This document shows, in pieces, positions 34,401-37,400 of a stretch of DNA of 64,000 nt. The position numbers were made by a program, and so were the translations under genes. Positions within the stretch are counted from its first letter, which is position 1; every line of letters begins with the position of its first letter. The stretch covers positions 34,834,679-34,898,678 of the forward strand of contig NC_091143.1 of NCBI RefSeq assembly GCF_041381155.1, written 5' to 3'. The DNA comes from Argopecten irradians (taxonomy: Eukaryota > Mollusca > Bivalvia > Pectinida > Pectinidae). Below the pieces are notes generated by a model, which was not told the DNA's origin, ran no database searches, and was given only the letters and a program-made list of their open reading frames with translations.

Positions 34401-37400
34401 CCCTGAAATTTCATAATGGACTGGTCAAGTCTTTGATTTAGAAGAGCCTAAATGTGTCTTCGGGATGAGTTAAGGTTGACATACAATTTTATTACTGAAA
34501 TCATACTGTAAACCCTTATGAGCGTATGTGATTGAATTTCATAAATATTACTGCCAATTTAAATTTGTGATACCGGCAGTTGCCATGAAAGAATCTCAGG
34601 TCCTGTATTTGGTACTTTACATTTCAATATCAAAGTGTTGTGAAAAGGGACATAAAGATAGTAATATTGGGTTACCTTATTTCCTAGTTTCATCCATAGT
34701 AATTAATTAGGCCTGAAGATGCTAAATGTTTAGAGATTTCCTATTGTTATCCACAGTAATTAGGCTTGAAGATAATAAATATTTCATATTGTTATCTACA
34801 GTAATTAGACCTGAAGATACTAAATATTTTGTATTGTTATCCACTGTAATTAGGCCTGAAGATACTAAATATTTCATATTGTTATCCACAGTAATTAGGC
34901 CTGAAGATACTAAATATTTCCTATTGTTATCCACAGTAATTAGGCCTGAAGATACTAAATATTTCCTATTGTTATCCACAGTAATTAGGCCTGAAGATAC
35001 TAAATATTTCCTATTGTTATCCACAGTAATTAGGCCTGAAGATACTAAATATTTCCTATTGTTATCCACTGTAATTAGGCCTGAAGATACTAAATATTTC
35101 CTATTGTTATCTACAGTAATTAGGCCAGAAGATACTAAATATTTCCTATTGTTATCCACTGTAATTAGGCCTGAAGATACTAAATATTTCCTATTGTTAT
35201 CCACAGTAATTAGACCTGAAGATACTAAATATTTCGTATTGTTATCCAAAGTAATTAGGTCAGAAGATACTAAATATTTCCTATTGTTATCCACAATAAT
35301 TAGGCCAGAAGATACTAAATATTTCCTATTGTTATCTACAGTAGTTAGGCCAGAAGATACTAAATATTTCCTATTGTTAATCCACAATAATTAGGCCAGA
35401 AGATACTAAATATTTCCTATTGTTATCCACAGTAATTTGGCCAGAAGATACTAAATATTTCCTATTGTTATCCACAGTAATTAGGCCAGAAGATACTAAA
35501 TATTTCCTATTGTTATCCACAGTAATTAGGCCTGAAGATACTAAATATTTCCTATTGTTATCCACAGTAATTAGGCCTGAAGATACTAAATATTTCCTAT
35601 TGTTATCCACAGTAATTAGGCCTGAAGATACTAAATATTTCCTATTGTTATCTACAGTAATTAGGCCTGAAGATACTAAATATTTCCTATTGTTATCTAC
35701 AGTAATTAGGCCTGAAGATACTAAATATTTCCTATTGTTATCTACAGTAATTAGACCTGAAGATACTAAATATTTCCTATTGTTATCTACAGTAATTAGG
35801 CCTGAAGATACTAAATATTTCCTATTGTTATCTACAGTAATTAGGCCAGAAGATACTAAATATTTCCTATTGTTATCTACAGTAATTAGGCCTGAAGATA
35901 CTAAATATTTCCTATTGTTATCTACAGTAATTAGGCCTGAAGATACTAAATATTTCCTATTGTTATCTACAGTAATTAGGCCAGAAGATACTAAATATTT
36001 CCTATTGTTATCTACAGTAATTAGGCCTGAAGATACTAAATATTTCCTATTGTTATCTACAGTAATTAGGCCTGAAGATACTAAATATTTCCTATTGTTA
36101 TCTACAGTAATTAGGCCAGAAGATACTAAATATTTCCTATTGTTATCTACAGTAATTAGGCCAGAAGATACTAAATATTTCCTATTGTTATCCACAGTAG
36201 TTAGGCCTGAAAATACTAAATATTTCCTATTGTTATCCACAGTAATTAGGCCAGAAGATACTAAATATTTCCTATTGTTATCCACAGTAATTAGGCCTGA
36301 AGATACTAAATATTTCCTATTGTTATCTACAGTAATTAGGCCAGAAGATACTAAATATTTCCTATTGTTATCTACAGTAATTAGGCCAGAAGATACTAAA
36401 TATTTCCTATTGTTATCCACAGTAATTAGGCCAGAAGATACTAAATATTTCCTATTGTTATCCACAGTAATTAGGCCAGAAGATACTAAATATTTCCTAT
36501 TGTTATCCACTGTAATTAGGCCAGAAGATACTAAATATTTCCTATTGTTATCCACTGTAATTAGGCCAAAAGATACTAAATATTTCCTTTTGTTATCTAC
36601 AGTAATTAGGCCTGAAGATACTAAATATTTCCTATTGTTATCCACAGCTGATACTCTATATGGCCCCATGCACAGCCAACAAGGTGTGGACCAGTACTTA
36701 AACGCTGTGTCGGAAGCCAAGGAACAGGGTGGTACTGTGGAATATGGAGGAAAGGTAAAACCTGTGATTGTGACCACCTCTGTATATAAACACCTGCTTA
36801 ATGAGAACATACACCTGTCTTAGTGATCACCTCTGTATATAAACACCTGCTTAATGAGAACATACACCTGTCTTAGTGACCACCTCTGTATATAAACACC
36901 TGCTTAATGAGAACATACACCTGTGATTGTGACCACCTCTGTATATAAACACCTGCTTAATGAGAACATACACCTGTCTTAGTGACCACCTCTGTATATA
37001 AACACCTGCTTAATGAGAACATACACCTGTGATTGTGACCACCTCTGTATATAAACACCTGCTTAATGAGAACATACACATGCCTTAGTGACCACCTCTT
37101 AGGACTGTAACGAGTATCCGAGTACTCGAGTATTTACGAATTATTGAGAAAGATCGGATACGAATATTCGTTACTCCTGATATTTGTGGATCGCGATCTT
37201 TCAAAAGCAAAAAAATAGTACCTTTTTTAATGCTGTCATAGCTCAAAAATGTGAAGGAATGTACACTAAAGTCTGAATATCATCGATGTTTTCACTTTGA
37301 AGTACACCGGAAGTACACATGAGCTGCGTGAAGTAAAGTTAGCAACATGTTATTTTCGTACCCACGCTTCGATGCAATGTTGTGAATTCTTCATAAAATA

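Follow-up and report, generated by a model that had tools for sequence, protein, structure and literature searches.

Tandem copies of a 3' splice site at exon 14 of ALDH7A1 in the scallop Argopecten irradians, a probably neutral mirage

In the bay scallop Argopecten irradians, the 3' end of intron 13 of ALDH7A1 (the gene for alpha-aminoadipic semialdehyde dehydrogenase) is built of 43 tandem units, mostly of 45 bp, each of which resembles a 3' splice site. The array is minisatellite-like and consists of copies of a splice site that is in use, as is typical of a mirage. We are fairly confident that it is one of several mirages in a genome rich in minisatellites and that it is most likely neutral.

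The window, by which the whole stretch of 64,000 nt that was analysed is meant, corresponds to C10:34834679-34898678 in the 846-Mb A. irradians assembly. When the A. irradians protein P0001 was aligned to the window with splicing allowed, it matched exactly over 539 residues, in 19 coding exons. Coding exon 13 (33769..33853, plus strand) leaves phase 1, and coding exon 14 (36648..36754, plus strand, 107 nt) is preceded by the last unit of the array. The introns on either side of exon 14 measure 2,794 nt (intron 13) and 4,978 nt (intron 14). By position matrix score the donor of exon 14 ranks 28 of 29; being among the weakest, it makes exon 14 a good place to look for a leak. A second array, with a 53-bp unit, lies in intron 14 (36770..40973, plus strand, with a gap at 37100-38131) and starts 16 nt past this donor. 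About 60 copies are found in its two blocks (36770-37099 and 38132-40973), which are separated by about 1 kb of other DNA, and all 41 places in the genome that match its core (at most 1 mismatch) are at the ALDH7A1 locus. That this array copies the exon 14 donor was rejected, as the match is just 10 nt long. Elsewhere in the window, at 19101-19673 on the minus strand, a 190-residue open frame seems, to judge from its translation, to resemble the tail of a retrotransposon reverse transcriptase.

The acceptor array occupies 34701..36647 on the plus strand. Its first unit is 56 bp long, one is 46 bp and the others are 45 bp; on the 5' side it is preceded by a partial degenerate unit (34679..34700, plus strand), recognized by local alignment over the 22 nt that run to the unit end. 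Tandem Repeats Finder (TRF) called 42.5 copies with 96% matches at 34736-36647. Every unit is laid out as TACTAAA, a pyrimidine-rich stretch and YAG, with the branch-type A 23 nt from the last G of the AG. The terminal unit (36603..36647, plus strand), which is the genuine acceptor of exon 14, equals the consensus and units 6, 7, 8, 12, 20 and 21, so that the functional copy is no outlier. Its last base is the G of the AG, and no part of the exon is included in it. The TRF call, the unit alignment and the spliced protein match thus bear out what had been predicted of the unit's composition, of the last unit as the genuine acceptor and of the phase of exon 13. Mean pairwise identity among the 41 units of 45 bp is 95.4%, and the units at the 5' edge are the diverged ones. 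With up to three mismatches allowed, a 29-nt core was matched 42 times in the window, where none was expected (100 shuffles). In the 846-Mb assembly the exact 25-nt core was found 35 times, each time in the ALDH7A1 array, for which reason a dispersed satellite or a transposon-borne repeat was rejected; a unit private to the ALDH7A1 locus is not an inserted satellite. Viral contigs gave no matches. An origin of the unit from the start of exon 14, with which it has GATACT..ATAT in common, was not significant (P 0.08-0.10), and a birth of the whole intron from the array was discarded, because the 42 core matches span 34768-36642 and none is at the donor at 33853. The units at 34712-36647 also carry a donor-like CACA/GTAATT, which overlaps the acceptor by one base and scores 4.7; the weakest real donor scores 4.56.

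Not all units are complete acceptors. The AG is kept in 36 of 43 and lost in the other seven (CTG in five, CAA in two), and TACTAAA is intact in 41. Both motifs occur together in just 34 units; the original prediction of about 43 complete acceptors therefore holds for the number of units and fails for their completeness. The strength of the sites was scored with an acceptor position matrix trained on the 29 other acceptors of ALDH7A1 and ORC2, which is a small set. The genuine exon 14 acceptor scored 6.3 (rank 16 of 30) and the 35 upstream copies with an intact AG, here called decoys, 2.2 to 10.5. More than half of these decoys (18 of 35) lie above the genuine site and all 35 outscore the weakest of the 29 other acceptors, whereas the 104 other AGs inside the array reach a maximum of 3.3. 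By sequence, the decoys are thus credible when set against bona fide acceptors. Two of the 50 AGs that intron 13 has beyond the array reach 10.1 and 6.8, a sign that the matrix has limits.

The decoy nearest to exon 14 is unit 43 (36558..36602, plus strand). Its AG is intact, it scores 10.5 against 6.3 for the genuine site, and its use would start the exon at 36603, 45 nt upstream, and add 15 residues. Acceptors had been foreseen at 45, 90 and 135 nt upstream. The first of these exists; the other two are destroyed, as units 41 and 42 (36468..36557, plus strand) read CTG, and the next intact AG is at -180. The AG was changed in 6 of the 41 units of 45 bp, and just 5 of 43 other dinucleotide positions change as often or more. 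The AG in the array units is under no protection. Neither was a conserved branch-point block apparent in the units, since the longest invariant run (nine columns) is as expected by chance (P 0.36).

The reading frame sets a further limit on what the decoys could contribute. The 46-bp unit (unit 16, 35342..35387, plus strand) breaks the frame, so that the AG-intact acceptors farther upstream (n=10) yield premature stops. From this break on 29 acceptor positions are in frame (units 16-44), where roughly 28 had been announced as in frame and free of stops; the AG is present in 26 of the 29. An open, in-frame mRNA is consequently predicted from 26 of 43 acceptors, namely 25 decoys and the genuine site. 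If the 56-bp and the 46-bp unit are set aside, 17 variant types occur among the 41 remaining units, of which 6 are synonymous in the coding frame and 11 are not. The three frames give 6, 8 and 2 synonymous types of 17 (binomial P 0.20 for the coding frame), and coding selection on the array is unsupported, another frame being the more synonymous one. That the unit length keeps the frame looks like chance, as other arrays have units of 46, 31 and 44 bp and the array in intron 7 a spacing of 73 to 86 nt.

P0001 is the product of the terminal junction across all 539 residues, and the annotated protein accordingly uses the terminal acceptor; P0001 may be a model built by similarity. Its homologs were inspected for an insertion at the same point. 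Among the 120 that were listed, out of 7997 over the cut-off and with P0001 counted in, none carries an insertion exactly at residue 364/365; within residues 354-376 this set shows two insertion columns at other places. The insert was also searched for, with words taken solely from three inserted copies, among predicted proteins whose length was between 0.55 and 1.75 times that of the query. Of 5.77 billion proteins 3301 became candidates, and not one of these reached an E value of 10 or better; the search was run without a positive control. From the sequence evidence, the upstream copies are most likely used little or never. A leaky ALDH7A1 isoform with 15 extra residues is possible, and the likeliest leak would be from the intact acceptor 45 nt upstream.

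Copies of splice sites are not restricted to exon 14. In ALDH7A1 and ORC2, its neighbour on the minus strand, 5 of 59 splice sites have copies, the exon 14 acceptor and four more. Four of the five were found by the copy test; the exon 7 donor (score 23, below the cut-off of 30) was recognized by reading. Three further sites over the cut-off were not counted, because their copies end before the AG. ORC2 matches protein P0121 exactly from residue 38 onward; its first exon was not found within the window. At the start of intron 7 of ALDH7A1 lies an array (30150..30765, plus strand) in which the units copy the exon 7 donor AAA/GTAAGT, and the GT is kept in 4 of 7 copies. The end of exon 16 and its donor form a two-copy duplication (42268..42355, plus strand), the second copy reading CGG/GTAGGTTG. 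The tenth mapped exon of ORC2 has a donor array (51471..52118, minus strand) of the genuine unit and 13 copies; this 46-bp unit consists of the last 37 nt of the exon and the donor GTTAGT, and the GT is found in 13 of 13 copies. Finally, the sixth mapped exon of ORC2 has an acceptor with one diverged copy, CTCCAG/CCTACAA, about 360 nt upstream (the two at 55157..55522, minus strand). In three arrays (ALDH7A1 exon 14, ALDH7A1 exon 7 and ORC2) it is the outermost unit that is used in the annotated protein, which for the latter two is the first donor. At 59319-59395 an ORC2 exon acceptor has a TTTA microsatellite as its pyrimidine tract.

A scan of the assembly for Pfam PF00171 gave 14 matches, which come from 13 scored of 127 first-look candidates; two adjacent matches with equal open-frame length may be one exon. 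TRF arrays cross the match edge at 2 of the 14 loci. One, on C1 (L028:1753-2005), is an acceptor mirage belonging to another ALDH gene and has eight copies of a 31-bp unit that holds CCAG/GTGTGATTGG, the exon part included; as in the ORC2 array, its units span the exon-intron boundary. The other, on C12 (L030:1023-1540), is a donor mirage, again of an ALDH gene, with 11.8 copies of a 44-bp unit, nine of them with GTATGTA. These two arrays imply that mirages are not confined to the ALDH7A1/ORC2 locus.

How such an array could arise and yet be tolerated may be pictured as follows. Tandem duplication, presumably by slippage or unequal exchange, would have multiplied the final 45 nt of intron 13, so that every unit copies the branch point, the pyrimidine-rich stretch and the AG. 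The genuine site is the outermost unit, beside unique exon sequence and closest to the exon 14 donor. According to a published study, long introns go with a preference for those sites that lie closest to each other across the exon (PMC9225289). By analogy with this proximity rule, and given the length of introns 13 and 14, the terminal acceptor should be favoured by pairing across the exon. For 3' sites the same study reports that membership of the exon-definition class only weakens the preference for the upstream site (PMC9225289), and a certain leak to the -45 site would therefore be no surprise. Counting against a neutral mirage are the 18 of 35 decoys that outscore the genuine site and the unit that contains no exon sequence.

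The original prediction had allowed for either a tolerated array of decoys or a source of isoforms of variable length. The former is supported by the terminal junction in P0001 and by the 120 listed homologs. The latter, in which use of decoys would lengthen the protein behind residue 364 by 15, 60 or more amino acids in an allele-specific pattern, seems unlikely. It can draw on the 25 decoys with an AG and an open frame, on the high score of the -45 site and on the weak exon 14 donor, which may loosen exon definition. What speaks against it is that the insert search was empty among 3301 candidates, that variation is not of a coding type (6 of 17 variant types synonymous, P 0.20, against 8 in another frame), that the exact point bears no insertion in 120 listed homologs, and that the 46-bp unit shifts the frame of 10 AG-intact sites; as a claim it went unsupported. 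It is very improbable that the array collects U2AF and U2 snRNP and so raises recognition of exon 14, the copies being bound and left uncut. The order of TACTAAA, pyrimidines and AG is kept, TACTAAA in 41 of 43 units, and a weak donor might profit from such help; the longest invariant run is nevertheless no longer than chance gives, the AG changes freely, and the donor arrays of ALDH7A1 and ORC2 offer no comparable use. Equally remote is an assembly error that has inflated an array of few copies. Tandem arrays are hard to assemble, the published text on the amphioxus draft genome reports one aberrantly assembled globin mirage (PMC3087553), and the copy number in PGBD5 is given as different between two lancelet sources (PMC3902484). 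The scallop units, however, differ by 17 variant types, and for PGBD5 the new data described there upheld the original sequence (PMC3902484).

A further rival reading is that splice sites are hot spots for the birth of minisatellites. Tandem DNA with a period of at least 20 makes up 20.4% of the window; in 20 stretches of 10 kb sampled along C10 (L008-L027, 200 kb in all) the share is 19.4% (range 0-82%). In one of these stretches a single array fills 8.2 kb. With about 20% of the chromosome sample being minisatellite, it is expected that splice sites are engulfed. Evidence for hot spots comes from the ends of arrays, of which 7 of 13 lie within 20 nt of a splice site against 1.4 expected under random intron placement (P 3e-5); when the two 53-bp blocks were counted as one and a microsatellite-like array was left out, this was 6 of 11 (P 5e-4), and under a circular shift 6 of 15 against 2.0 expected (P 0.008). 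At 10 nt, however, the circular shift gave P 0.08, and when limited to the nine arrays of at least 300 bp it gave P 0.30 for a distance of 5 nt and P 0.49 for 10 nt. Fewer arrays than expected overlapped a splice site or came within 5 nt of one (4 against 5.9), and nearby copies (score at least 30) occurred at 7 of 59 splice sites as compared with 22.7% of 3000 control places. Moreover, exons stop arrays, by which alone array ends fall at exon borders, and the distances in these tests were picked after the data had been seen. The evidence is mixed and contradicted by the copy test; hot spots, to which we give little credence, are not claimed. We conclude that splice sites are struck since the genome is full of minisatellites, and there is probably selection against some of the hits.

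A bolder extension, which we put forward with considerable doubt, is that several percent of scallop splice sites lie in mirages, that some of these leak, and that the -45 site of ALDH7A1 yields a minor isoform, longer by 15 residues and dependent on the allele. If this were true, the genome would be a very large natural set of splice-site competitions, with one to more than 40 near-identical rivals. Each mirage is a natural experiment on the choice of the spliceosome among near-identical tandem sites, at first-step distances and for donors as well as acceptors. Mirages may also feed intron sliding and new exons, and they may trap gene prediction.

The first paper on mirages is said to be that of Canestro in 2002. 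The original prediction knew of no described case; arrays of this kind have in fact been published, as tandem duplications of exon-intron boundaries called mirages in amphioxus (PMC3087553, Ebner et al. 2010) and in lancelet PGBD5, where one source has 7 and 6 copies and another source 2 and 3 (PMC3902484). Like those of amphioxus Adh3, the globins BflGb6 and BflGb9, TnC and PGBD5, the scallop mirages are tandem copies of donors and acceptors, and many amphioxus copies likewise keep AG or GT, in units of 10-72 and 150-160 bp (PMC3087553, PMC3902484). These reportedly leave the normal mRNA undisturbed (PMC3087553, PMC3902484). The ALDH7A1 array differs from the amphioxus globin haplotypes, with their 3 and 6 copies, in its 43 copies and its occurrence in a mollusc, and from amphioxus mirages, as the available text portrays them, in a unit that ends at the AG without an exon part and whose 45 nt keep the frame. 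The published mirages in the literature consulted on them come from amphioxus, the word itself also occurring in an ascidian paper. Among titles and the beginnings of abstracts in the open-licence literature searched, none dealt with a mirage in a mollusc. Their presence at unrelated mollusc genes (5 of 59 sites; 2 of 14 ALDH exon matches) suggests that mirages go with a high minisatellite load and not with one lineage.

NAGNAG tandem acceptors are a class of alternative acceptors, duplicated splice sites in globin constructs are reportedly the subject of older work, and introns born from tandem arrays are said to have been treated by Zhuo in 2007. Like NAGNAG acceptors, the ALDH7A1 decoys are alternatives able to add residues in frame; unlike them, they are spaced by 45 nt and have a branch-point-like motif in every unit. 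In terms of a distinction drawn in PMC9225289, the decoys would present a first-step choice and NAGNAG a second-step one. Human internal tandem repeats at exon-intron borders and introns born from tandem arrays (PMC2812944) resemble the scallop array in that the copies supply splice sites; the scallop array differs in that only the 3' site of the intron lies in it and the donor of intron 13 is no unit copy. Cryptococcus CNN00420 is similar in being a tandem expansion within a gene that carries splice signals along, but it duplicates whole introns (PMC2395259) and the ALDH7A1 array one splice site. In Caenorhabditis elegans minisatellites have reportedly been noted near alternative splicing (PMC4039745). 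The mirage is, then, a known and little-studied kind of repeat, to which its occurrence in a mollusc is an addition.
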